Source of the DNA: Streptomyces sp. CG1
Lineage (GTDB): Bacteria > Actinomycetota > Actinomycetes > Streptomycetales > Streptomycetaceae
Direction: 5' to 3'
Assembly: GCF_041080625.1 (NCBI RefSeq)
Contig: NZ_CP163518.1
Location: forward strand, 2,976,001-3,040,000
Length of the DNA stretch: 64,000 bases
In this document: piece by piece, positions 768 to 62,997 of the stretch
Numbering within the stretch: the first letter of the stretch is position 1
Layout of the letters: each line of letters opens with the position of its first letter
Program-made: the position numbers and the translations under genes
The notes under the pieces: generated by a model
Told to the model about the DNA's origin: nothing
The model's input: the letters and a program-made list of their open reading frames with translations, nothing else
Database searches by the model: none

Positions 768-790
768 AGACTAGGGGGAGCCACTGACAA
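768..790 (-). promoter_or_regulatory. RecA-NDp/PafBC-type promoter of uvrA
   Basis: On the minus strand the sequence reads TTGTCAGTG (790-782), eight bases, then TAGTCT (773-768). This matches the mycobacterial LexA-independent DNA-damage promoter (TTGTCRGTG-N8-TAnnnT) recognised through PafBC. The leader to the uvrA GTG is about 50 nt. The assignment is by motif match only. Confidence 0.75.
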
Positions 791-935
791 CGCCGGTCGG
801 ATTGCCCGGTTGCATAACAACCTCCGGCCATCCAGCATGCCCGACGCCGCCTCCGACGATATAGCACGTGCTTTCGATTAGCGGACGAGGTTCACCACCT
901 TCACCCAAAGGTGTGGCGGGGCTAGTGTCAGGCTC

Positions 936-1622
936 ATGATTGATCACGCTCATGACCTGGCATGTGTACGTGAAGCGACCGAACGGCTCCTCACAGCGGT
1001 CGCCAAACTGGACAACGCGTCGCTCGCCGAGCCGTCACGGCTCCCCGGCTGGACCCGCGGACACGTCCTCGCCCACCTCGCCCGTAACGCGGACGCGCTC
1101 GTGAACGTTCTCGAGGGCCGCCCGATGTACACGAGCGCCGAGGCGCGGGACGCCGACATCGAGCGGGGCGCCCCGCGCCCCCTCGACGCCCAGCTCGCCG
1201 ACCTGCGCGAGAGCACGGCTCGCTTCCAGGCGGCGGGGGACGCGCCGGCGGACTGGACGCGCACGGTGGAGCTGCGCAACGGCGTCACCGACTCGGCGTC
1301 CCGGCTGCCGTTCCGGCGGTGGGCCGAGGTCGAGCTGCACCATGTGGATCTCGGCATCGGGTACGAGCTGGAGGATGTTCCCGCGGAGTTCGTCGAGCGC
1401 GAGATCGGCTTCCTGGCGGACCGCTTCGCCGGGCACAAGGAGGTGCCCTCGACCGGCCTCGCCGCCGGCGACGGCCGGTCCTGGACCACCGGCGGCGGCG
1501 CGGCGGGCGGACCGGTCGCGGTCGAGGGTACGGCCGCCGACCTGCTGGGCTGGCTCGCCGGGCGGCGCGACGGCTCCCGTCTGACCACGAACGGCACGCT
1601 GCCGCAGCTGCCTCCGCTGTAG
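936..1622 (+). CDS. Maleylpyruvate isomerase-family mycothiol-dependent enzyme
   Basis: A 228-residue protein of the DinB/MDMPI fold, which uses mycothiol, the actinobacterial thiol cofactor. The N-terminal half holds LPGWTRGHVLAHLARNADAL. His47, Glu131 and His135 (AEVELHHVDLG) are in the places expected for the metal-binding triad. The substrate cannot be told from sequence; true maleylpyruvate isomerase is only one member of a large family. A TAGTGT -10-like hexamer at about 921-926 lies 9 nt before the ATG, suggesting a leaderless transcript. It reads towards the metallo-hydrolase gene 45 nt downstream and may share its transcript. Confidence 0.88.
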   Translation: MIDHAHDLACVREATERLLTAVAKLDNASLAEPSRLPGWTRGHVLAHLARNADALVNVLEGRPMYTSAEARDADIERGAPRPLDAQLADLRESTARFQAAGDAPADWTRTVELRNGVTDSASRLPFRRWAEVELHHVDLGIGYELEDVPAEFVEREIGFLADRFAGHKEVPSTGLAAGDGRSWTTGGGAAGGPVAVEGTAADLLGWLAGRRDGSRLTTNGTLPQLPPL

Positions 1623-1667
1623 GCCGCCGACGGTCCACGGGCCCCTCCCCGCTATAGGCTGATCACC

Positions 1668-2324
1668 ATGACGTACACCGGAGAGGTCAGGGTCGGCGGA
1701 CCGGCGGATGTGCACGAGCTGAAAGACCTGATGATCACGAAGATCGCGGTCGGCCCGATGAACAACAACGCCTATCTGCTGCGTTGCCGGGCCACCGACG
1801 AGCAGCTTCTGATCGACGCGGCCAACGAGGCGGAGACGCTCCTCGGCATGATCGGTGACGACGGCATCGCGTCCGTCGTCACCACGCATCAGCACGGCGA
1901 CCACTGGCAGGCGCTCGCCGAGGTCGCCGCCGCCACGGGCGCGCGTACGTACGCCGGCCGGGAGGACGCCCCGGGTATCCCGGTGCCCACCGATGTCCTG
2001 GTGAACGACGGCGACGTCATCAGGGTGGGGCAAGTGGAACTCACCGCGCGGCATCTCGTCGGGCACACCCCGGGTTCGATCGCCCTGGTCTACGACGACC
2101 CGCACGGCCACCCGCACGTCTTCACCGGCGACTGCCTCTTCCCGGGCGGCGTCGGCAACACGCGCAAGGACCCGAAGGCCTTCGCCAGCCTGATCCACGA
2201 CGTGGAGACGAAGATCTTCGACGCGCTCCCGGACGAGACCTGGGTGTATCCCGGGCACGGCAATGACACGACGCTGGGAGCGGAACGGCCGCATCTGCCG
2301 GAGTGGCACGCGCGCGGGTGGTGA
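1668..2324 (+). CDS. Metallo-beta-lactamase-fold hydrolase (glyoxalase II-like)
   Basis: A 218-residue cytoplasmic MBL-fold protein. The zinc-binding signature HxHxDH appears as THQHGDHW near residues 65-72, followed by the later ligands in GHTPGS, FTGDCLFPGG and VYPGHGND. This is the glyoxalase II/hydroxyacylglutathione-hydrolase-like branch; in an organism using mycothiol the substrate is probably a mycothiol or other thioester, but that is inference. The last codons (RGW-stop) lie in the first copy of a 20-bp tandem repeat that continues beyond the stop, so the C-terminal tail may have been remodelled by repeat growth. Confidence 0.9.
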   Translation: MTYTGEVRVGGPADVHELKDLMITKIAVGPMNNNAYLLRCRATDEQLLIDAANEAETLLGMIGDDGIASVVTTHQHGDHWQALAEVAAATGARTYAGREDAPGIPVPTDVLVNDGDVIRVGQVELTARHLVGHTPGSIALVYDDPHGHPHVFTGDCLFPGGVGNTRKDPKAFASLIHDVETKIFDALPDETWVYPGHGNDTTLGAERPHLPEWHARGW

Positions 2325-2392
2325 ACGCCGGGCGCGGGTGGTGAATGCCAGGCGCGAGCGCTGAGTGCCGGGCACGGGTGGTGAACGCCACG
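2313..2392. repeat. Four tandem copies of a 20-bp unit
   Basis: Exact 20-bp periodicity: units at 2313-2332, 2333-2352, 2353-2372 and 2373-2392, consensus CGCGGGTGGTGAACGCCGGG. The first unit includes the stop codon of the MBL gene. The remaining stretch to 2690 shows no convincing gene; it is GC-rich and should hold the promoter of the ABC importer. Confidence 0.9.
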
Positions 2393-2690
2393 CGCGTTTT
2401 CACCGCGCGCGCCCCGTGTGAACTTTTCGCACACGTCGGGGGCGCGTGCGCGCTCCCGACGCGCCCCGTCACGCGGTCAACTGGGAGCAGCGCCGCAGAG
2501 GATGACGGCTCCTGTGCGGTAGGGCCGCCGGTCTCCACCCCGCCCTCGGCCGGCGGCCCTGGCCAAAGACCCGCGCCGTGCGCGTCGTTCACACGGCTGC
2601 CGTTCACACGGCTGCAACACCCGCTCCCACTATGCGAACAGTTGTGGTTGTGACCTGGACAAACGGGGGGTCGGCTGTCAATCTCCCGCC

Positions 2691-3590
2691 ATGTATCTCG
2701 CCCCCCGCACCCTGCGTGCCCGCGCCCTGCGCCGCGCGCTGGCCGCCGCCACCGTAGCCCTGCTCGCCACCGCTGTCGGCTGTGCTCCGCAGCCCGAGGA
2801 CAAGGCGTCGGCAGGCGCCTCCGGCTCGGCCGCGAAGAGCTGCGCCAAGGGCAAGTTGGCCACCGAGACGTCCGGGAAGCTCACGGTCGCGACGGACGAG
2901 CCTGCGTATGAGCCCTGGTTCAAGGACGGCAAGCCGGCGAACGGCAAGGGCTTCGAGTCGGCGGTCGCCTACGCCGTGGCCCGGCAGTTGGGTTACGACA
3001 AGAGCGCGGTCGTCTGGCAGAGCGTGCCGTTCAACAAGGCGTTCGCGCCTGGCGTGAAGACTTTCGACTTCGACATCAACCAGGTGTCGATCAGCGCCGA
3101 GCGCAAGAAGGCCGTCGACTTCTCCTCCGGTTACTACGACGTGCGCCAGGCCGTCATCGCGCTGAAGGGCGGCAAGGCCGCCAAGGCGACGAGCATCGCG
3201 GACCTGAAAGACCTCAAGCTCGGTGCCCAGGTGGGCACGACGAGCCTCGACTACATCACCGACGTGGTGAAGCCCAAGCAGGAGGCCGCCGCGTTCGCGA
3301 AGAACGACCAGGCCAAGTCGGCGCTGCAGAACGGCCAGGTCGACTCCATCGTCGTCGATCTGCCGACCGCTTTCTACATCACCTCGGCCGAGGTGACGAA
3401 CGCGAAGATCGTCGGCCAGTTCGAGAACCAGGGCGGCGCACCGGAGCAGTTCGGGCTGGTGCTGGACAAGGGCAGCGCGCTGACCTCGTGCGTGAGCGGC
3501 GCCGTGGACGCCCTGCGCAAGGACGGCACGCTGGCGAAGCTCGAGAAGCAGTGGCTCTCCGACGCCGTCGACGCCCCGGTGCTCAAGTGA
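2691..3590 (+). CDS. Amino-acid ABC transporter substrate-binding lipoprotein
   Basis: A 299-residue extracellular solute-binding protein of family 3 (polar amino acid uptake). It starts with an Arg-rich signal peptide and a lipobox, ATAVGC, with the lipidated Cys at residue 31. The periplasmic-binding-protein core follows (KLTVATDEPAYEPWF, FDFDINQVSISAERKKAVDFSSGYYDV, GAQVGTTSLDYI). It is the first gene of an importer operon: its TGA overlaps the GTG of the permease gene. The ligand is likely a polar amino acid; which one is not visible. Confidence 0.93.
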   Translation: MYLAPRTLRARALRRALAAATVALLATAVGCAPQPEDKASAGASGSAAKSCAKGKLATETSGKLTVATDEPAYEPWFKDGKPANGKGFESAVAYAVARQLGYDKSAVVWQSVPFNKAFAPGVKTFDFDINQVSISAERKKAVDFSSGYYDVRQAVIALKGGKAAKATSIADLKDLKLGAQVGTTSLDYITDVVKPKQEAAAFAKNDQAKSALQNGQVDSIVVDLPTAFYITSAEVTNAKIVGQFENQGGAPEQFGLVLDKGSALTSCVSGAVDALRKDGTLAKLEKQWLSDAVDAPVLK

Positions 3591-4522
3591 CGGTCGCCAA
3601 GGGCGAGTCGGCCCGGGAGGGGACCGACGGCGAGGACGGCATGAAGGGTGGCGCCACCGACGGCGCCACCGGTGATGGCTACGTACCCTCCGAACGGCGG
3701 CTGGAGCGCGAGCGCTACAAACGCGCGCGTGCCCACCGCGCCACGGCCGTCGCGGCGCTCTCCACTCTGGTCTCGGCCATCGTGCTGTATCTGGTCGTGG
3801 TCGACGCGCCGGGTTGGCCGCGCACCAAGGAGACGTTCTTCAGCGCACAGTACGCGCGCGAGGCGCTGCCGAAGGTCCTCGAAGGGCTGTGGCTGAACGT
3901 CCGCCTGCTCGCGGTCTGCGGCGTCGCCGTACTGGTCCTCGGGATGCTGATCGCGATCGCCCGCACCCTGCGCGGCCCGGTCTTCTTCCCGCTGCGAGTG
4001 CTGGCGGCCGCCTACACCGACTTCTTCCGCGGCCTCCCTCTGATCATCAACCTGATGATCGTGGTCCTGGGCGTTCCGGCGCTGCGGCTGCAGGGCGTGA
4101 CGGTCGATCCGGTGCTCCTGGGCGGTACGGCGCTGACGCTGACGTACTCGGCGTACGTGGCCGAGGTGTTCCGGGCCGGCATCGAGTCGATCCACCCCTC
4201 GCAGCGCGCAGCAGCCCGCTCGCTGGGCCTGACCAGCCGCCAGGCCCTGCGCTACGTCGTCCTCCCCCAGGCGGTACGGCGTCAGGTGCCGCCGCTGCTG
4301 AACGACCTGGTGTCGCTGCAGAAGGACACCGGTCTGGTGTCGATCGGCGGTGCGGTGGACGCCGTGCGGGCCGCCGACATCATCGTGGGCCGCAGTCTGA
4401 ACTACACGCCGTACATCGTCGCGGGGCTGGTGTTCGTGGCGCTGACCATTCCGATGACCCGCTTCACGGACTGGGTGACGGCCCGGATGGACCGGCAGCG
4501 GGACCAGGGAGGATCGCTATGA
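3587..4522 (+). CDS. Amino-acid ABC transporter permease
   Basis: A HisM/GlnP-type inner-membrane subunit of about 311 residues. I chose the GTG at 3587 because it overlaps the preceding TGA (GTGA) and keeps the operon coupled; an ATG at 3641 (MKGG) is possible. A hydrophilic N-terminal stretch of about 55 residues precedes the first membrane helix. The EAA loop that contacts the ATPase is clear: FRAGIESIHPSQRAAARSLG. Several hydrophobic helices are visible (LLAVCGVAVLVLGMLIAIA, YIVAGLVFVALTI). It overlaps the ATPase gene by ATGA. Confidence 0.92.
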   Translation: MTVAKGESAREGTDGEDGMKGGATDGATGDGYVPSERRLERERYKRARAHRATAVAALSTLVSAIVLYLVVVDAPGWPRTKETFFSAQYAREALPKVLEGLWLNVRLLAVCGVAVLVLGMLIAIARTLRGPVFFPLRVLAAAYTDFFRGLPLIINLMIVVLGVPALRLQGVTVDPVLLGGTALTLTYSAYVAEVFRAGIESIHPSQRAAARSLGLTSRQALRYVVLPQAVRRQVPPLLNDLVSLQKDTGLVSIGGAVDAVRAADIIVGRSLNYTPYIVAGLVFVALTIPMTRFTDWVTARMDRQRDQGGSL

Positions 4523-5277
4523 GCGACACAGACGCGCCAGTCCTGCGCATGGAGTCCGTCCGCAAGACCTTCGGCGGCTCCGTAGTGCTGCGGGACGTCG
4601 GTCTGGAGGTCGCACCGCACACGGTGACCGCACTGATCGGCGCCTCCGGCTCGGGCAAGTCCACGCTGCTGCGCTGTGCCAACCTCCTGGAGGAGATCGA
4701 TGACGGCGCGATCTGGCTGGACGGCGAGGAGATCACCGATCCGCGCGTCGACCAGGACGCGGTGCGGCGCCGGATCGGCGTGGTCTTCCAGGCGTACAAC
4801 CTCTTCCCGCACATGAGCGTGCTGGACAACATCACGCTGGCCCCGCGCCGGGTGCACGGCGTCTCCCGTGCGGAGGCCGAGGAACGGGCCAGGGAGCTGC
4901 TGGAGCGTCTCGGACTGGGTGCGAAGGCGGATGCCTACCCCGACCGGCTCAGCGGCGGTCAGCAGCAGCGTGTGGCGATCGTACGGGCGCTTGCCGTGCG
5001 GCCGCGGCTGTTGCTGCTGGACGAGATCACGGCGGCGCTCGACCCCGAACTCGTGGGCGAGGTGCTGGAGGTGGTCCGGGGTCTGAAGGGCGACGGCATG
5101 ACCATGGTGCTGGCGACGCACGAGATGGGCTTCGCGCGGGACGTCGCCGACCAGGTTTGTTTTCTGGACGGTGGAGTCGTGCTGGAGCGCGGCACGGCCG
5201 AGCAGGTCTTCGGTGACCCGCAGCAGGAGCGCACGCGGCGCTTCCTGCGGCGGATCATGGAGGCCGGCCGGCTGTAG
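4519..5277 (+). CDS. Amino-acid ABC transporter ATP-binding protein
   Basis: A 252-residue GlnQ-type ATPase. Motifs in order: Walker A GASGSGKST (about 40-48), Q-loop VFQAYNLFPH, signature LSGGQQQRVAIVRAL, Walker B LLLLDEITAALDPE, H-loop THEMGFA. A GGGAGG ribosome-binding site lies just upstream of the ATG, which overlaps the permease stop codon. It completes the three-gene importer with the lipoprotein and permease. All catalytic motifs are intact, so the transporter should be functional. Confidence 0.95.
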   Translation: MSDTDAPVLRMESVRKTFGGSVVLRDVGLEVAPHTVTALIGASGSGKSTLLRCANLLEEIDDGAIWLDGEEITDPRVDQDAVRRRIGVVFQAYNLFPHMSVLDNITLAPRRVHGVSRAEAEERARELLERLGLGAKADAYPDRLSGGQQQRVAIVRALAVRPRLLLLDEITAALDPELVGEVLEVVRGLKGDGMTMVLATHEMGFARDVADQVCFLDGGVVLERGTAEQVFGDPQQERTRRFLRRIMEAGRL

Positions 5278-5317
5278 CGACGCGGCGGCCCGGTCTGCCG
5301 GTTCCGGCTACGCGTCG
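5278..5317. terminator. Possible weak bidirectional hairpin between convergent genes
   Basis: CGACGCG (5278-5284) can pair with CGCGTCG (5311-5317) around a 26-nt GC-rich loop. It sits between the ABC ATPase and aroQ stop codons. The stem is short, so confidence is low. Confidence 0.3.
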
Positions 5318-5781
5318 GCCTGGGCTTCGCCCACCAGGGCGGCCACGCGCTCCACGCCGAACACATAGCCCTGCACTCCGCATCCGGCGATCACGCCGTC
5401 CGCGCGCAGCGAGACATAGGAGTGGTGCCGAAACGACTCGCGCTGGTGGATGTTGGAGATGTGCACCTCCAGGACGGGCATGCCGTCACAGGTGTTGAGT
5501 GCGTCCAGAATCGCGACCGACGTGTGGGAGTAGGCACCGGGGTTGATGACGATCCCGCTGTGGTTCAAGCGCGCCTCGTGGATCCAGTCGACCAACTCGC
5601 CCTCATGGTTGGACTGCCGGAAGTCCACCGTGCCGCCGTGCGCGGCCGCGGCCTTGGCGCACAGCGCCTCGACGTCGGCCAGAGTGTCCCTGCCGTAGAT
5701 CTCGGGCTGGCGCTGGCCGAGCAGGTTCAGGTTGGGCCCGTTGAGGATCATGATCGGGGCGTTGGCCAGGGTGCGGGGCAC
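5308..5781 (-). CDS. aroQ: 3-dehydroquinate dehydratase, type II
   Basis: A 157-residue cytoplasmic enzyme of the shikimate pathway that removes water from 3-dehydroquinate. The type II signatures are present: [19 protein letters not shown] near the start with the catalytic Tyr, the [13 protein letters not shown] segment, and the catalytic His region [17 protein letters not shown]. Length is normal for the dodecameric type II enzyme. It is convergent with the ABC importer and divergent from the MFS gene. Rest of the shikimate genes are not in the window. Confidence 0.95.
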
Positions 5782-5955
5782 GGTTCCTCCGGTCCGTTCG
5801 GGGCGGTACGTCCACGACCGCCGCTCGCACCCGGTCTATCACGGTGGCCACAGCGGACGACGAGCCGCGCGCCATCGCCTCGGCGCACACTCCGGTCGCT
5901 TCGTCACCTCCACGCGCCCCCGTAACCCGTGATCACCGTGGGTAGTTGACGCAGC

Positions 5956-7260: not shown

Positions 7261-7282
7261 CCGGCCGAGGCCGGGCGGACGG

Positions 7283-11816: not shown

Positions 11817-12395
11817 CTACAGGTGCTGCTGGATGGCCGGCATCAGGTCCTGGAACGTACGGCCGTAAGCCGGGGTGCCCAGCGCGGTCATCGTCCAGCC
11901 CGAGCCCGCGCGATGCACCTTCGCCATGATCTGGGCGGTGTAGTCGCCGCCGCCGTCCAGGGTGTAGCGGGCGAGTTCCTGGCCGTTGGTCTCGTCCACG
12001 AGCCGGCAGAACGCGTTCTGCACCTCCTGGAAGGTCTGGCCCGTGAAGGAGTTGACGGTGAAGATGATCTGGTCGATGTGGACCGGGACGCGCTGCAGGT
12101 CCACGAGGATCGCCTCGTCGTCACCGCCCTGACCGACGCCGCCGACGAGGTTGTCGCCGGTGTGGCGGACCGAGCCGTCGTCGCTGACCAGGTGGCGGAA
12201 GAAGACGACGTCGACCGGCTCCTTCTCGGCGAAGAGGACGGCCGAGGCGTCCAGGTCGATCTCACGGGTGCGGGAGCCGAACAGGCCGCGCCGCTTCGCC
12301 GCCTGCCAGCCGAGCCCCATGCGGACCGCGGTCAGGGTGGCCCCGTCCTTCTTCTCCAGGCTGATGGCCTGACCCTTGCTCAAGTTGACGGACAC
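11817..12395 (-). CDS. TerD family protein
   Basis: A 192-residue soluble Ca2+-binding stress protein. It opens with VNLSKGQAISLEKKDG, has the acidic loop GDNLVGGVGQGGDDEAI that binds calcium in TerD, and ends with YTAQIMAKVHRAGSGWTMTALG. The GTG at 12395 was chosen because it gives the standard MSVNLSKG start with GAGGGG 8 nt upstream; a GTG one codon earlier is also open. The gene follows a PafBC-type promoter (12451-12473) and is followed by the TerD-fusion gene 58 nt downstream. Confidence 0.93.
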   Translation of the reverse strand: MSVNLSKGQAISLEKKDGATLTAVRMGLGWQAAKRRGLFGSRTREIDLDASAVLFAEKEPVDVVFFRHLVSDDGSVRHTGDNLVGGVGQGGDDEAILVDLQRVPVHIDQIIFTVNSFTGQTFQEVQNAFCRLVDETNGQELARYTLDGGGDYTAQIMAKVHRAGSGWTMTALGTPAYGRTFQDLMPAIQQHL

Positions 12396-12450: not shown

Positions 12451-12473
12451 ACCCTACGCAGGGGCACTGACAG
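12451..12473 (-). promoter_or_regulatory. RecA-NDp/PafBC-type promoter of terD
   Basis: Minus strand: CTGTCAGTG (12473-12465), eight bases, TAGGGT (12456-12451). Spacing is identical to the uvrA and uvrB promoters. The terD start is 55 nt further on. This would place terD and the fused TerD gene in the DNA-damage regulon. Confidence 0.68.
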
Positions 12474-12552: not shown

Positions 12553-14673
12553 TCAGGCAAGGCCGGCTTCCCGCATCTGGCGCAGTTCCTTCTTCATCTC
12601 CGAGACCTCGTCGCGCAGCCGGGCCGCGATCTCGAACTGCAGCTCCGCGGCGGCGGCGCGCATGCGCTCGGTCATCTCCTCGATCTGCTCGGCGAGTTCG
12701 GCCGCCGGGCGGTCCGTGGGCACTGTCCTGCCCTTGTCGGCCTTGCCCGCCTTGTCGCCCAGCGACGGGACGGGTGCCTTGGCACCCTTGCCCTCCTTGG
12801 ACTTGCGGTAGCCGGAGCCGAGGAGTTGCTCGGTGTCGACCTCCTCGCGGGCGATCTGCGCGACGATGTCGTTGATCTTCTTGCGCAGTGGCTGGGGGTC
12901 GATGCCGTTGGCCTTGTTGTAGGCGACCTGCTTCTCCCGGCGGCGGTTGGTCTCCTCGATGGCCTTCTCCATCGCCGGGGTGATCTTGTCGGCGTACATA
13001 TGGACCTGGCCGGAGACGTTGCGCGCCGCACGGCCGATGGTCTGGATCAGCGAGGTGCCCGAGCGCAGGAAGCCTTCCTTGTCGGCGTCCAGGATCGCCA
13101 CCAGGGACACCTCGGGCAGGTCGAGGCCCTCACGCAGGAGGTTGATGCCGACCAGGACGTCGTACTCACCGGAACGCAGCTCGCGCAACAGCTCGACACG
13201 GCGCAGGGTGTCGACGTCGCTGTGCAGATACCGCACCTGGATGCCCAGCTCCAGGAAGTAGTCGGTGAGGTCCTCGGCCATCTTCTTGGTGAGCGTGGTG
13301 ACAAGGACGCGCTCGTCCTTCTCGGTGCGCTTGCGGATCTCGTGCACCAGGTCGTCGATCTGGCCCTCGGTGGGCTTGACCACGACCTCCGGGTCGACCA
13401 GGCCGGTCGGGCGGATGATCTGCTCGACGACGCCGTCGGAGCGCGACAGCTCGTACGTGCCCGGGGTGGCCGACAGATAGACGGTCTGGCCGATGCGCTC
13501 CTGGAACTCCTCCCACTTCAGGGGGCGGTTGTCCAGCGCGGAGGGCAGGCGGAAGCCGTGGTCGACTAGGGTCCGCTTGCGGGAGGCGTCGCCCTCGTAC
13601 ATGGCGCCGATCTGCGGGACGGTGACGTGCGACTCGTCGATGACGAGCAGGAAGTCGTCCGGGAAGTAGTCCAGCAGGGTGTTGGGCGGGGAGCCGGGCA
13701 GGCGGCCGTCGAAGTGCATCGAGTAGTTCTCCACGCCGGAGCAGGAGCCGATCTGGCGGAGCATCTCGATGTCGTACGTCGTACGCATGCGCAGGCGCTG
13801 GGCCTCCAGGAGCTTGCCCTGCTTCTCCAGCTCGGCCAGGCGCTCCCCCAGCTCCTTCTCGATGTCGTTGACGGCCCGCTCCATGCGCTCGGGGCCGGCG
13901 ACGTAGTGGGAGGCGGGGAAGACGTACAGCTGCTGGTCGTCGCTGATGATCTCGCCGGTGAGCGGGTGCAGTGTGGACAGCGCCTCGATCTCGTCGCCGA
14001 ACATCTCGATGCGGACGGCCAGCTCCTCGTAGACCGGGAAGATCTCGATGGTGTCGCCGCGGACCCGGAAGGTGCCGCGGGTGAAGGCCATGTCGTTGCG
14101 CGTGTACTGGATGTCGACGAAACGGCGCAGCAGCTCGTCCCGGTCGATCTCGTCGCCGATCCTCAGGGGGACCATCCGGTCCACGTATTCCTGCGGAGTA
14201 CCGAGGCCGTAGATGCAGGACACCGAGGCGACCACGATGACGTCGCGCCGGGTGAGCAGCGAGTTCGTCGCCGAATGGCGCAGCCGCTCGACCTCCTCGT
14301 TGATCGAGGAGTCCTTTTCGATGTATGTGTCCGACTGCGGGACGTAGGCCTCGGGCTGGTAGTAGTCGTAGTACGAGACGAAGTACTCGACCGCGTTGTT
14401 CGGCAGCAGCTCGCGGAACTCGTTGGCCAGCTGGGCGGCCAGCGTTTTGTTCGGCGCCATCACGAGCGTGGGGCGCTGGAGCTTCTCGATCATCCACGCC
14501 GTGGTGGCGGACTTGCCGGTGCCGGTCGCGCCCAGCAGGACGACGTCCTTCTCACCGGCCTCGATGCGCCGGGCCAGGTCGGCGATGGCCGCCGGCTGAT
14601 CGCCGTTGGGCTGGTAGGGGCTGACGACCTCGAAAGGCGCCACCGTGCGTTCGATGTGGGAAACGGGCCGCAT
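12553..14673 (-). CDS. uvrB: UvrB, excinuclease ABC subunit B
   Basis: A 706-residue DNA helicase-like subunit of nucleotide excision repair. Seen in order: Walker [14 protein letters not shown], the beta-hairpin [16 protein letters not shown] that grips DNA, Walker [16 protein letters not shown], the helicase motif QTIGRAARN, and the C-terminal UVR motif ([23 protein letters not shown]) that binds UvrC. The ATG at 14673 ([20 protein letters not shown]) gives the standard N-terminus and sits 7 nt after the -10 of the upstream damage promoter, so a leaderless mRNA is likely. Confidence 0.97.
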
Positions 14674-14680: not shown

Positions 14681-14703
14681 ACCGTACGGCCCCTCACTGA
14701 CAA
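14681..14703 (-). promoter_or_regulatory. RecA-NDp/PafBC-type promoter of uvrB
   Basis: Minus strand: TTGTCAGTG (14703-14695), eight bases, TACGGT (14686-14681). It overlaps the intergenic space just downstream of the MHYT gene. The uvrB ATG follows after 7 nt. Confidence 0.78.
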
Positions 14704-16757: not shown

Positions 16758-16780
16758 TTGTCAGTGGCGGGTCGTACCGT
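16758..16780 (+). promoter_or_regulatory. RecA-NDp/PafBC-type promoter of ogt
   Basis: TTGTCAGTG (16758-16766), eight bases, TACCGT (16775-16780). The ogt ATG begins at 16787, six bases after the -10 element, so the transcript should be leaderless. The site lies just after the phosphodiesterase stop codon. Confidence 0.78.
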
Positions 16781-16786: not shown

Positions 16787-17341
16787 ATGGACAGCCATGG
16801 GCAGGATGAGCAGCGGGTCGTGTGGGCCGTGGTGGGCACGGACATCGGGCCGCTGATGCTGGCGGCGACCCGGGACGGCCTGGTCAACGTGGTCTTCCAC
16901 GCCACCGACGCGGTGCGCGACCGCGCTGTGGAGCGGCTGGCGGACCGGCTGGGCTGCACTCCCGCGGAGGATCCGGACTCGCCGCTGCTGGCGAAGGCGA
17001 TATGCCAGCTGCGGGCGTACTTCGCGGGCGAACGGCACGACTTCGACCTGCCGCTGGACTGGTCACTGATCTCCGGCTTCAACCGGCAGGTGCTGCGCGA
17101 GCTGGCGGCCGGTGTGCCGTACGGCACGGTGGTGGGTTACGGCGATCTCGCAGGTCGGGTGGGGCAGCCCGGCGGGGCGCAGGCGGTCGGCGCGGCGATG
17201 GGTGCCAATCCGCTGCCGGTGGTCGTGCCGTGTCACCGGGTGGTGGAGAGCGACGGCGGCATCGGCGGCTTCGGGGGCGGGCTGGAGACCAAGCGCAGGC
17301 TGCTCGCCCTGGAGGGTGTGCTGCCCGAGCCGCTGTTCTGA
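16787..17341 (+). CDS. ogt: Methylated-DNA--protein-cysteine S-methyltransferase
   Basis: A 184-residue suicide repair enzyme that removes alkyl groups from O6-guanine in DNA. The acceptor-cysteine motif VVPCHRVV, the helix-turn-helix segment PYGTVVGYGDLAGRVG, and the asparagine hinge MGANPLP are present. The start is the ATG at 16787, the only one compatible with the upstream promoter. No Ada regulatory domain is attached. With uvrA, uvrB and polA it forms a repair-rich neighbourhood under a shared promoter type. Confidence 0.95.
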   Translation: MDSHGQDEQRVVWAVVGTDIGPLMLAATRDGLVNVVFHATDAVRDRAVERLADRLGCTPAEDPDSPLLAKAICQLRAYFAGERHDFDLPLDWSLISGFNRQVLRELAAGVPYGTVVGYGDLAGRVGQPGGAQAVGAAMGANPLPVVVPCHRVVESDGGIGGFGGGLETKRRLLALEGVLPEPLF

Positions 17342-48304: not shown

Positions 48305-48928
48305 CTATTCCGAGTCCCGCTCCACGGAACCCTCGCGGGCCCGCCGTACCAGCTCCTCCCACACCTCGGCGACGCGCTTGCGCAGCGCATCCAGAGGTCC
48401 GTCGTTGTCGATCACGATGTCCGCGATCTCCCGGCGCTGCTCGCGGCTCGCCTGCGCCGCCATACGCGCGCGTGCGTCCTCCTCGGTCATCCCGCGCCGC
48501 CGGACCAGCCGGTCGAGCTGGGTCTCGGGGCTCGCGTCCACGACGATCACGAGGTCGTAGAGCGGTGCCAGGCCGTTCTCGGTGAGGAGGGGTACGTCGT
48601 GGATCACGACGGAGTCGGCGGCCGCGGTCTCCTCCAGCTCGCGGGAGCGGGCGCCCACCAGGGGGTGCACGATCGAGTTGAGGACGGCGAGCTTCTTGGG
48701 GTCGGCGAAGACGATCGAGCCGAGCTTGGGCCGGTCCAGGCTGCCGTCGGCGGTGAGGACGTCCGTGCCGAAGGCCTCGACCACGGCGGTGAGGCCAGGG
48801 CTGCCCGGTGCCACGACCTCGCGCGCGATGCGGTCCGCGTCGATCAGCACGGCCCCGTGCTCCACGAGCAGCCGTGACACCTCGCTCTTGCCGGCGCCGA
48901 TCCCACCGGTCAGGCCCACTTTCAGCAT
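48305..48928 (-). CDS. coaE: Dephospho-CoA kinase
   Basis: A 207-residue enzyme that phosphorylates the 3'-OH of dephospho-CoA in the last step of coenzyme A synthesis. Walker A is [17 protein letters not shown], followed by [21 protein letters not shown] and [14 protein letters not shown], all standard for CoaE. The ATG at 48928 begins the usual MLKVGLTGG; it lies 7 nt after a PafBC-like -10 element, so a leaderless transcript is predicted. An essential single-copy gene under a damage-type promoter is unexpected. Confidence 0.96.
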
Positions 48929-48935: not shown

Positions 48936-48958
48936 AGCTTAGGCCCTGCCACTGACAG
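48936..48958 (-). promoter_or_regulatory. RecA-NDp/PafBC-like promoter of coaE
   Basis: Minus strand: CTGTCAGTG (48958-48950), eight bases, TAAGCT (48941-48936). Same spacing as the uvrA, uvrB and ogt sites. The coaE ATG follows after 7 nt. Confidence 0.6.
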
Positions 48959-48973: not shown

Positions 48974-49912
48974 TCAGTTCTCGCCCTCCCGCTCCGCCAG
49001 GAACCGCTCGAACTCGCGCCCGATCTCGTCGGCCGACGGGATCTCCACCGGCTCGGCGAGCATGTTGCCCCGGGTCTCGGCGCCCGCGGCCGCGTCGTAC
49101 TGGTGCTCCAGTCCCTGGACGAGCGCGGTGAGTTCCTCGTCGCCCTCCTGGATCTGCCGGTCGATCTCCGTCTGCGTGCGGTGCGCGTCGGTGCGCAGCG
49201 AGTGCGCGACGCCCGGCAGCACCAGCCCGGTGGCGGCCGTGATGGCCTCCAGGACGGTCAGGGCGGCGTCGGGGTACGCCGAGCGGGCGATGTAGTGCGG
49301 GACGTGCGCGGCGACGCCCAGAACCTCGTGCCCGGACTCCATCAGGCGGAACTCGACCAGCGACTCGGCGCTGCCGGGCACCTGGGCCTCCTCGAAGGGG
49401 CTGCGGTGGCCCGGGACGAGGTCGTTGCGGTTGCCGTGCGGGGTCAGGCCCACCGGGCGGGTGTGCGGAACGCCCATGGGGATGCCGTGGAAGTTCACCG
49501 ACAGACGGACGCCGAGCCGCTCGACGATCTGCTGTACGGCCGCCGCGAACCGCTCCCACTCCACGTCCGGCTCGGGGCCGGACAGCAGCAGGAACGGGGC
49601 GCCCGTGGCGTCCTGGACCAGGCGGACCTCGATGGCGGGCACCTCATACTCGGTCCAGCGGTCCCGCTTGAAGGTCAGCAGGGGCCGACGGGCCCGGTAG
49701 TCCACGAGCCGGTCGTGGTCGAAACGGGCGACGAGCTGGTGGGGCAGTGAGTCGACCAGCCGGTCGACGATCTGGTCTCCGGTCTCACCCGCGTCGATGT
49801 ATCCGTCGAAGTGGTAGAGCATGACAAGGCCGGCCGACTCCTGGGCGAGCGCCATGTCGACAACGGCGAGGCCCTTCGGCTCCCATGCGTACAAACCCTG
49901 CGGATCAAGCAC
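48974..49912 (-). CDS. PAC2 (proteasome-assembly-chaperone-2) family protein
   Basis: A 312-residue soluble protein. PAC2 features: [60 protein letters not shown] and [20 protein letters not shown]. Actinobacterial PAC2 proteins are conserved but of unsettled function; a link to the proteasome, present in actinobacteria, is only by name. It starts with GTG at 49912. coaE lies immediately downstream but has its own promoter. Confidence 0.9.
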
Positions 49913-56780: not shown

Positions 56781-56796
56781 GCCGGTGCGTGTGGTG

Positions 56797-58524
56797 TCAG
56801 GAGGAGCTGGACGGGCTCGGGGACGGGGTCGGGCTCGCCGAGGTGTCGTCGGCGGCGACCTTCAGCTCGACGGTGAGCGTCGTGCCACCGGCCGTGGTGA
56901 TGCGGAGCAGGAAGGTGCCGGTGTTGTCGTCCGCGTACAGCTTCGGCAGCGTCAGCAGGCCCTTGGCGTCCGTCAGCAGACCGTCGAGGGTGCGTACGGG
57001 CTTGCCGTTCTTGTCCTTGAAGTAGGGGCCCTTGTCGTTCTCACTGGTGTCGAGCGGGGACTTGATCAGGGTGGCGGTGGCCGCCACCTTGTCCGCGACG
57101 GCGCCCTTGTACGTCGCCTTCACCTGGACCTGGTCGGCGAACTCGCCGCCCGGGGTGCAGGTCAGCGGGGTGTCGCTGGTGCGGGTCAGGGTGTCGGCGA
57201 CGCGCTCGGTGACGGTGGCCGTGTAGTCGGCACCCTTGACCGAGCGGCCCACGACGGTGGCGGTGACCTTGAAGCCGCCGGTCTTCTCGCCCGCCTGGAG
57301 CGCCGGTGCGAGGGCGACGCCCCGGGCGTCGGTGGTGACCGTGGCCACGGTCTCGCCGCCGGTGAAGGTGGCGTCGGTGTCCCCGCTGATCGTGAACCTG
57401 ATCCTGACCTTGGCCACGGACTTGTCGGCCTTGGTCTCGGCACGCGTGCCGATCCGCTCGGCGAAGGCGTGGCCGGCCATCGCGGTGAGCTGCGCGGTGT
57501 CCGCGTCCTGAAGGTGGTCCACCGTGTCGGTGGGGGTCTGCGGAGTCGTCGGCGGGACCGGCGGCTTCGGGCTGGGGTTGCCGCTGCCGCCGCCGGGCTT
57601 GCCGGGCTTCGGGTCCGGCCTGGGGTCCGGCTTGGTCGTCGGCGGGTTCGACGGCTTCGGGGACTGGGAGTGCCGGCTGCTGTCGTCGCTGCGATGGCCG
57701 GGCACGCTGCCGGTGCCGTTGGGTACGGAGTGGGTGCCCTTGCGGTAGTACTCCAGCCACGACAGGACGGTGCTCAGATAGTCCTGCGAGTCGTTGTAGC
57801 TGAGGATGGCGCTGTGCAGGTCGTCCTCGCGCGAGAGGTCCCAGCCGTTGCGGCACAGGTAGTCGCCTGCGGCGAGGGCGGCGTCGTAGACGTTGTTGGG
57901 GTCCTTCTTGCCGTCGCCGTTGCCGTCGCGGCCCGCCCAGGCCCAGGTCGACGGGATGAACTGCATGGGGCCGACGGCCTGGTCGTACTCGGTGTTGCCG
58001 TCGTACTCGCCGTGGTCGGTGTCCTTGACGAGCGCGAAGCCGTTGCCGTCGAGCGCCGGGCCCAGGATCCGGCCGATCGTGGTGCCGTCGGCGTCGACCC
58101 GACCGCCGTCGGCCTGGCCCGACTCGACCTTGCCGATGGCGGCGAGCAGTTGCCAGGGCAGGTTGCAGCCCGGCTTGGTGGAGCGCAGTTCGGCCTCGGC
58201 CTTCTTGTAGGCGTCGAGGACCGTCGCCGGTATGCCGGCCTCGGCGTCGCCCGTGGCGACGGGAGTGCCGGCGGTCGTCGGCGAGGGGCTGGGACGGGGG
58301 CTGTTGAGCGGCGGCAGGTCCGTGTAGTACGGCGAGTTGCCGGTGGCGTTGCCGTCGGAGGTCGCGCCGGGCACAGGGGCGGAGGCGCCTGCCGCGGTCT
58401 GTCTGCCGTGGTCCTCGCCGGTCGCTCCCGGAGCCTGGGACGCGGACAGGGCCGCGACCGCTGCCGCGGCCACGGCGGTGGTCGCCGCCCCCTTGCGTAG
58501 CCGCCTTCCGAAATGCGCCGCCAT
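56797..58524 (-). CDS. Secreted lytic transglycosylase (SLT/MltB-like) with Ig-like C-terminal part
   Basis: A 575-residue exported protein. Signal peptide (RRLRKGAATTAVAAAAVAAL), a Pro/Ser linker, then the catalytic domain at about 100-260 (PWQLLAAIGKVESGQADGGR with the catalytic Glu; AVGPMQFIPSTWAWAGRDGN; DGKKDPNNVYDAALAAGDYL). A Pro-rich wall-spanning linker (PPTTKPDPRPDPKPGKPGGG) leads to beta-rich repeats (about 400-560) and a Ser/Pro tail. It cleaves peptidoglycan glycan strands. The 316 bases upstream (58525-58840) hold its promoter and a small AGACG...CGTCT hairpin but no riboswitch I recognise. Confidence 0.91.
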   Translation of the reverse strand: MAAHFGRRLRKGAATTAVAAAAVAALSASQAPGATGEDHGRQTAAGASAPVPGATSDGNATGNSPYYTDLPPLNSPRPSPSPTTAGTPVATGDAEAGIPATVLDAYKKAEAELRSTKPGCNLPWQLLAAIGKVESGQADGGRVDADGTTIGRILGPALDGNGFALVKDTDHGEYDGNTEYDQAVGPMQFIPSTWAWAGRDGNGDGKKDPNNVYDAALAAGDYLCRNGWDLSREDDLHSAILSYNDSQDYLSTVLSWLEYYRKGTHSVPNGTGSVPGHRSDDSSRHSQSPKPSNPPTTKPDPRPDPKPGKPGGGSGNPSPKPPVPPTTPQTPTDTVDHLQDADTAQLTAMAGHAFAERIGTRAETKADKSVAKVRIRFTISGDTDATFTGGETVATVTTDARGVALAPALQAGEKTGGFKVTATVVGRSVKGADYTATVTERVADTLTRTSDTPLTCTPGGEFADQVQVKATYKGAVADKVAATATLIKSPLDTSENDKGPYFKDKNGKPVRTLDGLLTDAKGLLTLPKLYADDNTGTFLLRITTAGGTTLTVELKVAADDTSASPTPSPSPSSSS

Positions 58525-58840
58525 CGAGTGAACCCCTCCCGTGGACGCCCCGCGTCCGTCTCCGTCGGTCTGCCCTCGCTCTGGTGTGACGGTCGACCCG
58601 GTGTTCAGGTTGCGCCTGAGACGTCCTTACGTCTGTGCGTTGTGCGTACGACCGTGCGTTCGGCACGGCGACTCAGGCGACCCTACGGCAACTTGCTGTG
58701 CGTCGGGACCCGTTCTCGCCCGATTTCACCGGTTGGCCGACTCTCGTTGTCGCGTACGGTCCGCACGGGGGCCGCGCATACTGGACGGGACTCGATCACC
58801 GGCTCGATGCCGTGGCCGACGACCGTCCCGGGGAGCCCTG

Positions 58841-59742
58841 TTGCCGTTCACGCTCAGCCATACGGCCGCCGTCCTGCCCGCGGTCCGCCGGAACGGGTCC
58901 GGCCGCGGCCAGCTGGTGCCGGCGGTGCTCGTGGCGGGTTCCTTCGCGCCCGACATGACCTTCTATGCGGCGAGTGTCCTGCCGGGCGGGATGCAATTCG
59001 GCACGGTCACCCACTCGTTCACCGGGGTCTTCACTGTCGACGTGCTCATCTCCTGGGCGCTGGTCGGGCTGTGGCTGCTCGTCCGCGAACCGCTGCTCGC
59101 ACTGCCGCCCCGGGGCCTGCAGGGCCGGCTGTGCTGCTGCGCTGCGGTGCGCCACGCGCGCGGGTACGGGCCGGCTCGGCGGTGAGGTGGTACGTCTCCG
59201 CGGTGCTCGGTGCGCTGACCCATGTGGTGTGGGACGCGTTCACGCACGACGGGCGGTGGGGGACGCGGCTGATTCCGGCCATCGAGCGGGACCGGCCGAC
59301 GGGCCTGTCGCTGTTCTCGTGGCTGCAGTACGGCTCGTCCGTGGTGGGCGCGCTTGTGATCGCGGTGTTCACCGCGCGTGCGGCACGGCGGGCGCCGGGC
59401 GGTGAGGCGGTGGGGGTGCCCGTGCTGTCCGTGCGGGACCGGTGGGTGGCCGGGGCAGTGAACGGCGGTTGTGCGGCGGCCGGGGCGGTGCAGCGGGCGG
59501 CGCGCTGGTGGGCCGTCGTCGGCGCGCCCCGGCGGCTGTGGGATCTGGTGCCGATGCTGTGCTTCGGGGTGGGCGCCGGGGTGGTCCTGGGTCTGGTGCT
59601 GTACGCCGCCGGGGTCAGGGTGTGGCGTCGGGACCGGGTTCTGGACGGTCCGGGGAGTCCCGCCGATCACCGTGATCTCGGTAATCAGGATGATTCCGGT
59701 GGGGTGGTCGGTGCGGGCCCGGAGCGGCCGGTCGCTCGGTGA
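58841..59742 (+). pseudogene. DUF4184 membrane protein, frameshifted
   Basis: The first frame starts at TTG 58841 (GGGGAG upstream): LPFTLSHTAAVLPAVRRNGS, VAGSFAPDMTFYAASVLPGG and MQFGTVTHSFTGVFTVDVLI, ending at a stop at 59185. The family continues in another frame as RWYVSAVLGALTHVVWDAFT then HDGRWGTRLIPAIERDRPTG and LSLFSWLQYGSSVVGALVIA to 59742. A single-base indel near 59110-59150 (within the run around CTGTGCTGCTGCGCTGCGG) would restore one protein. It is either a recent pseudogene or a sequencing error. Confidence 0.82.
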
Positions 59743-60070
59743 GGGAGGCGACGAAGACCGTGAGGGTCGGCCGGGGGCGCGATCTCGGAATCGCGGTGAG
59801 CGCGAGGGCCAGGTAGCCCCGGGCCAGGTCGGTCCACTGGCGCCAGTCCGGGGCGTGACCCGCGTGGGCGGTACTGCCGGCGCGTCCGTGCCAGAGGTCC
59901 GTGGCGGCTCTTCGGACGGCTGCGGCCAGGCCGGAGGGGATGCGGGCGGTGCTTGCGTCGGCCGCGAGGGCCGGGACCGGCGAGGCGGGCATGGCCTGCG
60001 CCGAGGCGGTGTCCGCCCAGGCCCGGGTGTCTGTCTCGGGCGTCCGGCGGTGAAGCATGCGTATACCCAT
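59615..60070 (-). CDS. Hypothetical Streptomyces protein
   Basis: About 151 residues from ATG 60070. The core (SPVPALAADASTARIPSGLA then AAVRRAATDLWHGR, DWRQWTDLARGYLALALTAI) looks conserved in style, and the C-terminus is His/Pro/Arg-rich. The 3' end overlaps the convergent DUF4184 gene by 128 bases, which is unusual; the true stop may lie earlier in ancestral form. No function is recognised. Confidence 0.5.
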   Translation of the reverse strand: MGIRMLHRRTPETDTRAWADTASAQAMPASPVPALAADASTARIPSGLAAAVRRAATDLWHGRAGSTAHAGHAPDWRQWTDLARGYLALALTAIPRSRPRPTLTVFVASLTERPAAPGPHRPPHRNHPDYRDHGDRRDSPDRPEPGPDATP

Positions 60071-60180
60071 GCTCGCAGTTTTGCGGCTGTGGGGGGCGGG
60101 GGGCGTTTTGGCGGGGGCCACGTGAGTGACGGTCCCTCCGGGGGTTCGGCCGACGGGTTCTTCTGGGCGCCGCTGCGGTG

Positions 60181-60226
60181 GCGGAGGGGGCGGCGCAGCC
60201 TGCCCCGGCTGCACCGCCCCCTCCGC
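60181..60226 (-). terminator. Terminator of polA
   Basis: GCGGAGGGGGCGGCGCAGCC (60181-60200) pairs with GGCTGCACCGCCCCCTCCGC (60207-60226) with one G-T/C change in 20, around TGCCCC. It lies 15 bases beyond the polA stop codon. Confidence 0.88.
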
Positions 60227-60240
60227 TCAAGCGCCGCAGG

Positions 60241-62967
60241 CTAGTGCGCCGCCGATTCCCAGTCCGGGCCCACGCCGACCGAGACGTCCAAGGGGGCGTG
60301 GAGATGGACGGCGTTCGCCATTTCGCGGCGGACGATCTCTTCCGTGGCCGCCCGCTCGCCGGGGGCGATCTCCAGGACGATTTCGTCGTGGACCTGGAGG
60401 AGCATGCGGGACTTCAGGTCCGCTGCCCGCAGCGCGCTGTCCACCTTGAGCATGGCGATCTTGACGATGTCGGCCGCCGTGCCCTGGATGGGCGCGTTGA
60501 GGGCCATGCGCTCGGCCGCCTCACGGCGCTGGCGGTTGTCGCTGTTGAGGTCCGGGAGGTAGCGGCGGCGGCCGAAGAGCGTCGCCGTGTAGCCCGTCGC
60601 CCGCGCCTCGTCGACCGCCCGGCGCAGATAGTCCCGGACGCCGCCGAAGCGCTCGAAGTACGCGTCCATGAGGGCGCGTGCCTCGGCCGCCTCGATGTTC
60701 AGCTGCTGGGAGAGGCCGAACGCGGAGAGGCCGTAGGCCAGGCCGTACGACATCGCCTTGATCTTGCGGCGCATCTCCGCGTCCACCGCGGCGGGCTCGA
60801 CGCCGAACACCTGGGACGCGGCCGTGGTGTGCAGGTCCTCGCCGGAGGTGAACGCCCGGATCAGGCCCTCGTCCTCGGAGAGGTGGGCCATCACGCGCAG
60901 CTCGATCTGGCTGTAGTCGGCGGTCATCAGGGACTCGAAGCCCTCGCCGACCACGAAGCCGCGGCGGATCGCCCGGCCCTCGTCCGTGCGGACCGGGATG
61001 TTCTGCAGGTTCGGGTCCGTGGAGGAGAGGCGGCCCGTCGCTGCCACCGTCTGGTTGAAGGTGGTGTGGATGCGGCCGTCGCCCGCGATCGTCTTGATCA
61101 GGCCCTCGACCGTGACGCGCAGCTTCGCCTGCTCGCGGTGGCGGAGCATGATCACCGGCAGTTCGTTGTCGGTCTGGGTGGCGAGCCAGGCCAGGGCATC
61201 CGCGTCGGTGGTGTAGCCGGTCTTGGTCTTCTTCGTCTTCGGCAGGGCCAGCTCGCCGAAGAGGACCTCCTGGAGCTGTTTGGGCGAGCCCAGGTTGAAC
61301 TCGTGACCGGCAGCCGCGTGGGCCTCCTTCACGGCCTGCTGGACCGCTCCCGCGAACGTCTGCTCCATCGCCTCCAGGTGCGCGCGGTCGGCCGCGATGC
61401 CGTGCCGCTCCATGCGGGCGAGCAGCGCGGACGTGGGCAGCTCCATGTCGCGCAGCAGGTCCGCCGCGCCGACCTCCTCCAGGCGGGTCCCGAAGGCCTC
61501 GCCGAGGTCGAGGACCGCGCGGCCCTGGATCATCAGCGCCTCGGCCTCGGCGCCGTCGTCGGCACCGAAGGCCAGCTGGCCGTCGGCCGCGGCGGCGGGC
61601 GCCAGCTCGCGGTGCAGGTACTCCAGGGACAGCGCGTCCAGGTCGAAGGAGCGGCGGCCCGGCTTGACCAGGTAGGCGGCGAGCGCGGTGTCCATGGTCA
61701 CGCCCTCGACGGACCAGCCGTGCTCGGCGAAGACGCGCATGGCGCCCTTGGCGTCGTGGAACACCTTGGGGCGGCCGGCGTCGGCCAGCCAGGCCGCGAA
61801 CGCCTTCTCGTCGGCCTCGTCCAGCTCGGCCGGGTCGAACCAGACGGCCGCTCCCCCTGCCGCGGCCAGGGCCACCTCGGCGACCGAGCCGGTGCCCAGT
61901 GCCCAGGTGTCGACGGTGGCGACGCCCAGGGTCCCGGCGCCGTGCTCGGCGAGCCAGGGAGCCAGCTCGCCGGTGCGCAGGATCTTGCCGTCGATCTCCA
62001 CGCCGCCCGTCGCCACGGGGGTGGTCTCGGCCTCCTCGGCACCGGGGTCGACGGCGAAGAGGCGCTCGCGCAGGGACGGGTTGCGGATCTCCAGGGTGTC
62101 CAGGACCATCGCGACGGCCTTGCGGTCGTACGGGGCCCGCTCCAGGTCGGAGACCGCCTTGGACAGCTCGACCTGGCGCTCCAGCTCGGTGAGGACGCGG
62201 TTGAGCTTGACCGACTCCAGGTGGTCGCGGAGGTTCTGCCCGGCCTTGCCCTTGACCTCCTCGACGCGCTCGACCAGCTCCGCGAAGGAGCCGAACTGGT
62301 TGATCCATTTCGCGGCGGTCTTCTCGCCGACGCCGGGGATGCCGGGGAGGTTGTCGGACGGGTCGCCGCGCAGGGCCGCGAAGTCGGGGTACTGCGCCGG
62401 CGTCAAGCCGTACTTCTCGAGAACCTTCTCCGGGGTGAACCGGGTCAGCTCCGAGACGCCCTTCGTCGGGTACAGCACGGTGATGTTCTCGGTGACCAGC
62501 TGGAAGGAGTCGCGGTCGCCGGTGACGATCAGCACCTCGAAGCCGACGGCCTCCGCCTGCGTGGCGAGGGTGGCGATGATGTCGTCCGCCTCGAAGCCCT
62601 CGACGGCGAAGCGCGGGGCGTGCATCGCGTCGAGCAGCTCGCCGATCAGCTCGACCTGGCCCTTGAACTCGTCCGGCGTCTTGGAGCGGTTCGCCTTGTA
62701 CTCGGTGAAGCGCTCGGAGCGCCATGTCTTGCGCGAGACGTCGAAGGCCACGGCGAAGTGCGTGGGCTCCTCGTCACGCAGGGTGTTGGCCAGCATCGAC
62801 GCGAAGCCGTAGATCGCGTTCGTCGGCTGGCCGGTCGCGGTCGTGAAGTTCTCCGCGGGCAGCGCGAAGAACGCGCGGTAGGCCAGCGAGTGCCCGTCCA
62901 TGAGCATCAGCCGGGGACGGCTACCGCCGGAGGTCTTGTCGGTCTTCTTCGATGCTGTCTCTGCCAC
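60241..62967 (-). CDS. polA: DNA polymerase I
   Basis: A 908-residue repair polymerase. The N-terminal 5'-nuclease domain (LMLMDGHSLAYRAFFALPAE, VEGFEADDIIATLA, IVTGDRDSFQLV, GIPGVGEKTAAKW) is intact. The middle 3'-5' exonuclease domain has lost its acidic residues (VDTWALG in place of DTET; FHDAKGAM), as in other actinobacterial Pol I, so proofreading is not expected. The polymerase domain has MTADYSQIELRVMAHLS, RRKIKAMSYGLAYGLSAFGL and LQVHDEIVLE. GTG at 62967 was chosen; it lies 7 nt after a PafBC-like -10. Confidence 0.97.
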   Translation of the reverse strand: MAETASKKTDKTSGGSRPRLMLMDGHSLAYRAFFALPAENFTTATGQPTNAIYGFASMLANTLRDEEPTHFAVAFDVSRKTWRSERFTEYKANRSKTPDEFKGQVELIGELLDAMHAPRFAVEGFEADDIIATLATQAEAVGFEVLIVTGDRDSFQLVTENITVLYPTKGVSELTRFTPEKVLEKYGLTPAQYPDFAALRGDPSDNLPGIPGVGEKTAAKWINQFGSFAELVERVEEVKGKAGQNLRDHLESVKLNRVLTELERQVELSKAVSDLERAPYDRKAVAMVLDTLEIRNPSLRERLFAVDPGAEEAETTPVATGGVEIDGKILRTGELAPWLAEHGAGTLGVATVDTWALGTGSVAEVALAAAGGAAVWFDPAELDEADEKAFAAWLADAGRPKVFHDAKGAMRVFAEHGWSVEGVTMDTALAAYLVKPGRRSFDLDALSLEYLHRELAPAAAADGQLAFGADDGAEAEALMIQGRAVLDLGEAFGTRLEEVGAADLLRDMELPTSALLARMERHGIAADRAHLEAMEQTFAGAVQQAVKEAHAAAGHEFNLGSPKQLQEVLFGELALPKTKKTKTGYTTDADALAWLATQTDNELPVIMLRHREQAKLRVTVEGLIKTIAGDGRIHTTFNQTVAATGRLSSTDPNLQNIPVRTDEGRAIRRGFVVGEGFESLMTADYSQIELRVMAHLSEDEGLIRAFTSGEDLHTTAASQVFGVEPAAVDAEMRRKIKAMSYGLAYGLSAFGLSQQLNIEAAEARALMDAYFERFGGVRDYLRRAVDEARATGYTATLFGRRRYLPDLNSDNRQRREAAERMALNAPIQGTAADIVKIAMLKVDSALRAADLKSRMLLQVHDEIVLEIAPGERAATEEIVRREMANAVHLHAPLDVSVGVGPDWESAAH

Positions 62968-62974
62968 GCCCCCG

Positions 62975-62997
62975 ATCCTGCCACGCCGCACTGACAG
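62975..62997 (-). promoter_or_regulatory. RecA-NDp/PafBC-like promoter of polA (weaker match)
   Basis: Minus strand: CTGTCAGTG (62997-62989), eight bases, CAGGAT (62980-62975). The first base of the -10 differs from TAnnnT. The polA GTG follows after 7 nt, again suggesting a leaderless mRNA. The remaining 62998-63225 gap has a polypurine tract (about 63100-63150) and no gene. Confidence 0.5.

Follow-up and report, generated by a model that had tools for sequence, protein, structure and literature searches.

Do uvrA, terD, uvrB, ogt, coaE and polA, which lie together in a stretch of 64,000 nucleotides (nt) of Streptomyces sp. CG1, share a DNA-damage promoter, and what would such a promoter imply for the expression of the genes behind it? 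The stretch (bases 2,976,001-3,040,000 of the main contig in a genome of 11.1 Mb) is referred to here, at its full length, as the window. A sequence-only reading of the window had proposed that the six genes carry promoters of the RecA-NDp/PafBC type and that their density reflects a clustered damage regulon. The promoter part of this proposal is borne out by a genome-wide excess of the motif and by the presence of PafBC genes, while the clustering part is weakly supported. A PafBC/RecA-NDp-type regulon is very probably the right reading of the motif set, and about half of its predicted promoters are positioned for the mRNA to begin at the start codon.

The motif and the placement of start codons

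All six elements fit the pattern YTGTCAGTG-N8-YAnnnT and were recovered where the earlier reading had placed them, on the strands it had given (Table 1), against none expected from 100 shuffles; the first letter is T in three of them and C in the other three. The same reading held that TGTCAGTG does not recur in the window, and exactly six copies were indeed found over both strands, compared with 1.38 expected. Each copy is followed by N8-YAnnnT, a coincidence for which base composition gives about 0.01 per site and 1e-12 for all six. The putative -10 box is TAnnnT in five sites and CAGGAT at polA, and the downstream genes were identified by Pfam in every case as UvrA, TerD, UvrB, Ogt, CoaE and PolA. 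The gap between motif and start codon is 6-7 nt at uvrB, ogt, coaE and polA; at uvrA, where either of two GTG codons could be the start, it is 44 or 56 nt, and at terD 52 or 55 nt.

Scanned across the whole genome, TTGTCRGTG-N8-YAnnnT gave 63 matches against one for its reversed-pattern control, and VTGTCAGTG-N8-YAnnnT gave 40 against two. With 103 sites against three, the motif is not equally common at random, the outcome by which the sequence-only reading had proposed to be judged. Chance matching in a long genome, to which we attach next to no probability, is already contradicted for the site set by these control counts and by the start-codon peak described below, although single sites may be chance, and some do lie far from a gene start (the start codon is more than 100 nt from the motif in 12 of 93 called genes).

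These sites are marked as predicted promoters by two features that played no part in the site search. The first is the position of the start codon: ATG or GTG (RTG) stands 6 nt past the -10 box in 21 of the 103 sites and 7 nt past it in 33, together 54, over a background mean of 3.35 sites per offset (offsets 20-99), and the log10 P of this +6/7 peak is about -36. The second is an extended-10 TG, present at 16 of the 48 sites with a CA-type -10 and at none of the 55 with a TA-type -10 (24/48 and 1/55 when the adjacent register is included). That the sites are ordinary constitutive housekeeping promoters, with TTGTCA as the -35 box, is very unlikely. TTGTCA does resemble the -35 consensus TTGACA, but it lies 11 nt from the -10, and as a -35 box it was rejected because this spacer is too short beside those of S. 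lividans, for which the available text gives averages of 16.5-17.4 nt and a searched range of 15-19 nt; the conserved block also extends through GTG, and in 94 of the 103 sites a purine precedes the motif.

Since RTG stands at the expected transcription start in these cases, leaderless mRNAs are predicted, and leaderless translation from these promoters would be expected. The mean distance from the -10 to the transcription start site (TSS) in S. lividans is 6.3 nt, and leaderless transcripts account for 21% of primary TSSs in S. coelicolor and 17% in S. lividans, according to the available text of PMC4895711, PMC8079986 and PMC4681348, as against the 54 of 103 predicted at the PafBC-type sites here. 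With the TA-type pattern, RTG falls at +6/7 in 253 of 548 matches across 22 genomes of the genus, and in six other families, those represented by at least 18 genomes in a sample of the class, the corresponding counts are 77/151, 41/55, 36/66, 8/27, 150/461 and 10/27. The chance rate of 6.5% was estimated on the sites of the present genome and gives no more than an approximate yardstick elsewhere. The count of 150/461 becomes 135/279 when two genomes with 63 and 119 matches are removed; in these genomes of family f86 (G424, with six leaderless starts among 63 matches, and G444, with nine among 119) the motif is perhaps borne by a repeated element.

In the available text of earlier studies, the leaderless mRNAs of S. 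coelicolor form no functionally linked group (Romero 2014), membrane and regulator genes are named among leaderless mRNAs (Jeong 2016), and those of mycobacteria have no functional enrichment under standard growth (Shell 2015). PafBC was not found joined to leaderless transcripts of its regulon in the accessible text of the open-licence PMC literature, where two papers mention both, in unrelated passages. We tentatively propose, as a possibility that we rate below even, that the PafBC-type damage regulon of actinomycetes is largely leaderless, with the promoter anchored to the start codon for about half of the targets in Streptomyces and several other families, and that Streptomyces recA belongs to it with an extension of 12 residues.

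A possible extended form of RecA

The promoter of the organism's own recA (L081), which is among the 54 sites with RTG at +6/7, shares its SOS box and motif with the recA loci of named Streptomyces. The recA loci found with the SOS box and TTGTCAGTG have TAnnnT at N8 in 120 of 120 among the matches listed, though this element was not in the query. The usual recA start lies 43-44 nt past the -10. An additional in-frame RTG at +7 (at +8 in one locus), open into MAG, occurs in 118 of 118 checkable loci among those matches, two of at least 120 loci having been dropped as lacking ATGGCAGG; 102 of these codons begin with G and the other 16 with A, no other letter being seen. Translation from this codon would add the 12 residues [MV]KRSTQANRVEP or a near variant. 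Of the 27 synonymous changes possible in the extension, 7 were observed, as were 7 of the 72 possible nonsynonymous ones, a difference that is only suggestive, and the summed changes (69 versus 15) count sequences and not events; the stretch is too conserved for its changes to prove translation. It is a real possibility that the damage promoter would direct synthesis of an extended RecA besides the usual form.

The putative regulator and competing explanations

Homologues of pafB and pafC lie together in this genome, near the Pup ligase gene pafA and the genes for two proteasome subunits (L105); the encoded proteins have the domain arrangements HTH_PafC+WYL+WCX and WYL+WCX. Among solved structures, the best matches of the two proteins are the PafB and PafC chains of 7p5x, a PafBC entry according to the available text of PMC10936776, and of 9fnd. 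The reading helix of the PafB homologue, FNRMFER, retains both of the arginines seen in 7p5x (FSRMFER) and 6sj9 (FGRMFER), and replacement of both by alanine in mycobacteria gives the phenotype of a pafBC deletion. A RecB/AddB-type nuclease gene (L042, C1:2586730), which lies 18 kb from pafC and some 9 kb from the genes for the proteasome subunits, carries a PafBC-type motif, with ATG at +8.

In Mycobacterium smegmatis, single-stranded DNA (ssDNA) activates PafBC, PafB reads the -26 motif and PafC contacts sigma (available text of PMC11804915). Transferred to the present organism by homology, this mechanism would begin with DNA damage, upon which ssDNA would activate the PafB-PafC pair. The helix-turn-helix of PafB would then read TGTCRGTG as the '-26' element, the housekeeping sigma factor would be held at its domain 4 by PafC, and the polymerase, lacking a proper -35 box, would start at a -10 that stands eight bases downstream (TAnnnT or TGn-CAnnnT). 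By analogy, we infer both the binding of PafBC in this organism and the induction of these promoters by damage.

A called gene follows 88 of the 103 sites, and the family scan covered 81 of these (seven were left unscanned), with long proteins scanned up to 500 residues, for which reason some named families fall below curated cut-offs. By our reading, 23 of the 81 function in replication, recombination or repair, namely uvrA, uvrB, ogt, polA, ung, dinB, ruvC, dnaE, dnaN, dnaX, holB, radA, pcrA and recA, together with genes for a RarA-type ATPase, an Fpg/Nei-type glycosylase, a PolI-type 5'-3' exonuclease, a RecB/AddB-type nuclease, a UvrD/AddA-type helicase, an Lhr-type helicase, a DinG/YoaA-type helicase, a GyrA/ParC-type topoisomerase and an AlkZ-like glycosylase. 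Targets that have no obvious link to repair include moaA, gcvT, pepN, dtxR, folB and immunity-protein-like genes. Immunity-protein genes of the SUKH-4 (L025) and Imm49 (L035) types have PafBC-type motifs with the start codon at +8 and +6, respectively. Elsewhere, two divergent PafBC-type motifs, with starts 59 nt apart, stand before one gene for a SWIM-domain protein and one for a weakly matched AAA-type ATPase (L074), and similar motif pairs, 59-60 nt apart, occur in the named genomes G546 and G553.

The motif is abundant throughout the genus. In a phylum-wide sample of 296 genomes, the nine that belong to the window's genus are all enriched, with 10-40 matches each against 0-1 for the control, and no genome in that sample from outside the class exceeds three matches (control counts 0-2). 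In the class sample of 246 genomes, 22 of 22 from the genus are enriched, with 548 matches against four for the control; the match totals for genus and families were summed by hand from per-genome counts. All ten named genomes, nine of Streptomyces and one of Actinacidiphila, are likewise enriched. Streptomyces narbonensis, which we take to be a close relative of S. venezuelae and which was scanned in its place, has 40 matches against two for the control; the 80 recA records listed by name do not include S. venezuelae.

Several observations weigh against a PafBC-type regulon. According to a 2022 study of S. venezuelae (available text of PMC9380542), a first search for the M. smegmatis PafBC motif suggested a lack of conservation in that species, a statement with which the predicted sites of S. 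narbonensis, a relative and not S. venezuelae itself, do not agree. Fifteen of the 103 sites have no gene by criteria of length and GC content at third codon positions (GC3). The enrichment of repair genes that the sequence-only reading had asked to see is not significant, at 23 of 81 downstream genes as opposed to 3 of the 20 neighbours upstream (P = 0.27 by Fisher's test); this control, a random draw of 20 from 89 candidates, holds UvrB itself, a RecB/UvrD-type operon partner and an AidB-type gene that was not scored as repair, and it was scanned with Pfam, most downstream genes with NCBIfam. The HTH_PafC family is found in 237 of the 246 class genomes, yet several families have few or no motif matches; being nearly everywhere in the class, its co-occurrence with the motif neither discriminates nor proves a pairing. 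Lastly, this genome has eight HTH_PafC matches, four of them above the family cut-off, and given the seven further HTH_PafC-like matches another WYL regulator could read the motif.

That the reader of the motif is in fact such a WYL-domain activator, or else a dedicated sigma factor, and not PafBC, is unlikely. Besides the eight HTH_PafC matches, a sigma-70-family gene that itself carries the motif (L075) would be in keeping with it. However, the motif matches both the PafBC-bound RecA-NDp type and the S. rimosus recA promoter, TTGTCAGTGGC-N6-TAGggT (as cited in the available text of PMC2375139), the reading helix of PafB is unchanged, and the -10 boxes are housekeeping-like, with extended-10 compensation.

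It is highly improbable that LexA/SOS control accounts for the damage genes and that the motif is incidental, although individual promoters do speak for LexA. Of 30 loci, 29 have an SOS-like box 5' of uvrA, irrespective of a PafBC-type motif, and for this reason uvrA looks firmly LexA-type and only partly PafBC-type; recA has both SOS box and motif. An SOS-like match with two mismatches is also found at 49008, 50 nt 5' of the coaE motif and inside the preceding gene, and six equally good matches occur in the window. As a general explanation, LexA was rejected because uvrB, ogt and polA have no SOS-like match (at most three mismatches) within 150 nt 5' of their motifs, and yet these are the genes that keep the motif best.

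Conservation, gene order and known systems

Conservation was followed gene by gene in up to 30 genomes of the genus with the strict motif, the present genome being counted except for ogt, and loci in which the gene start was not found were dropped (polA 1/30, terD 1/30, ogt 1/27). The strict motif is kept at uvrB in 28 of 30 loci, at ogt in 24 of 26 and at polA in 25 of 29, and every motif-bearing locus of these three genes has its start codon at +6/7 (28/28, 24/24 and 25/25). Four more polA or uvrB loci are one letter off the strict motif, and in one uvrB locus (L283) the spacer of the motif is shortened by one base. At polA, TGGCAGGAT and TGG-CAGGAT are invariant over 25 aligned rows, in which the motif columns are high by construction because motif-bearing rows had been selected. 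At uvrA the motif is kept in 15 of 30 loci, at terD in 11 of 29 and at coaE in 6 of 30. Among the 24 coaE loci that lack it, 22 still have TAnnnT 6-7 nt 5' of the start, and it is possible that a PafB element was gained there on a pre-existing leaderless promoter. As a conserved damage target, coaE was rejected on these counts. The predicted core targets are uvrB, ogt, polA and recA.

With its six sites, the window is the densest 64 kb of the genome. Random placement of the 101 chromosomal sites (the scan statistic leaves aside two sites on contig 2) gives at least six somewhere with P = 0.024, or P = 0.063 within the 2-8 Mb core. The distance between polA and uvrB is at most 75 kb in 23 of the 24 genomes that have both on one contig (28 were compared, four being split over contigs). 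The site density of the window thus reflects conserved gene order combined with a core-rich regulon. Mycobacteria have a similar gene order, polA-rpsA-coaE-uvrB-uvrA. A clustered regulon as a special feature was rejected in view of these P values and the inherited gene order; the motifs of coaE and terD are also poorly kept.

Table 1. Predicted promoters, SOS-like box and coding sequences (CDS) in the window
Feature	Position	Strand	Details
uvrA PafBC/RecA-NDp-type promoter (predicted)	768..790	-	TTGTCAGTG-N8-TAGTCT; GTG near 711 (or 723); leader roughly 40-50 nt
LexA/SOS-like box 5' of uvrA	862..877	-	3 mismatches to palindrome TCGAAC-N4-GTTCGA
terD PafBC-type promoter (predicted)	12451..12473	-	Shine-Dalgarno-like GAGAGGGG before GTG at 12395 or 12398
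uvrB CDS	12553..14673	-	Pfam UvrB domains
uvrB PafBC-type promoter (predicted)	14681..14703	-	ATG 14673, 7 nt past -10; predicted leaderless
ogt PafBC-type promoter (predicted)	16758..16780	+	ATG 16787, 6 nt past -10; predicted leaderless
ogt CDS	16787..17341	+	Pfam DNA_binding_1 + Methyltransf_1N
coaE CDS	48305..48928	-	Pfam CoaE
coaE PafBC-type promoter (predicted)	48936..48958	-	ATG 48928; predicted leaderless; TGTCRGTG element lineage-specific
polA CDS	60241..62967	-	Pfam DNA_pol_A + 5_3_exonuc domains
polA PafBC-type promoter (predicted)	62975..62997	-	CA-type -10, extended-10 TG (TGG-CAGGAT); GTG 62967; predicted leaderless

The motif in Streptomyces is already known (2002, 2008). A UV-inducible recA promoter was described in S. 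rimosus (Ahel 2002, as cited in the available text of PMC2375139), RecA-NDp promoters are credited to Gamulin 2004 where later papers cite it, and SIGffRid (2008) predicted 67 S. coelicolor genes with the motif, including those of uvrB and polymerase I (PMC2375139). The motif is common to that work and the present sites, whereas its available text makes no tie to PafBC, start-codon placement, -10 classes or tiers of conservation. The macrodomain gene SCO6735 of Streptomyces has a RecA-NDp-type promoter and is induced five-fold by UV (PMC5087735); the promoter type is again shared, though that report, in its available part, concerns a single gene and does not name a regulator. Compared with the RecA-NDp/PafBC system of Mycobacterium (accessible text of PMC11804915, PMC6789036 and PMC8223512), the motif type, recA and repair targets, PafB and PafC with an intact reading helix, and a locus near pafA and proteasome genes are held in common; CTGTCAGTG and a CA-type -10 with extended-10 TG occur here. 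The LexA regulon of S. venezuelae shares recA, ruvC and uvrA (just below the cut-off of that study) as targets but differs in box and logic, so far as the available text of PMC9380542 describes it.

What is added here is the placement of the start codon, the two -10 classes, the tiers of conservation and the misfit with the 2022 statement; the in-frame recA start, too, was not found in the accessible open-licence PMC literature. These predicted promoters bear on a question left open in print, namely whether Streptomyces has a LexA-independent damage response, and suggest why a study of LexA would miss part of the response to damage. They predict leaderless repair mRNAs and an extended RecA, and, if this is true, damaged cells would make repair proteins through a route that is independent of the Shine-Dalgarno sequence.

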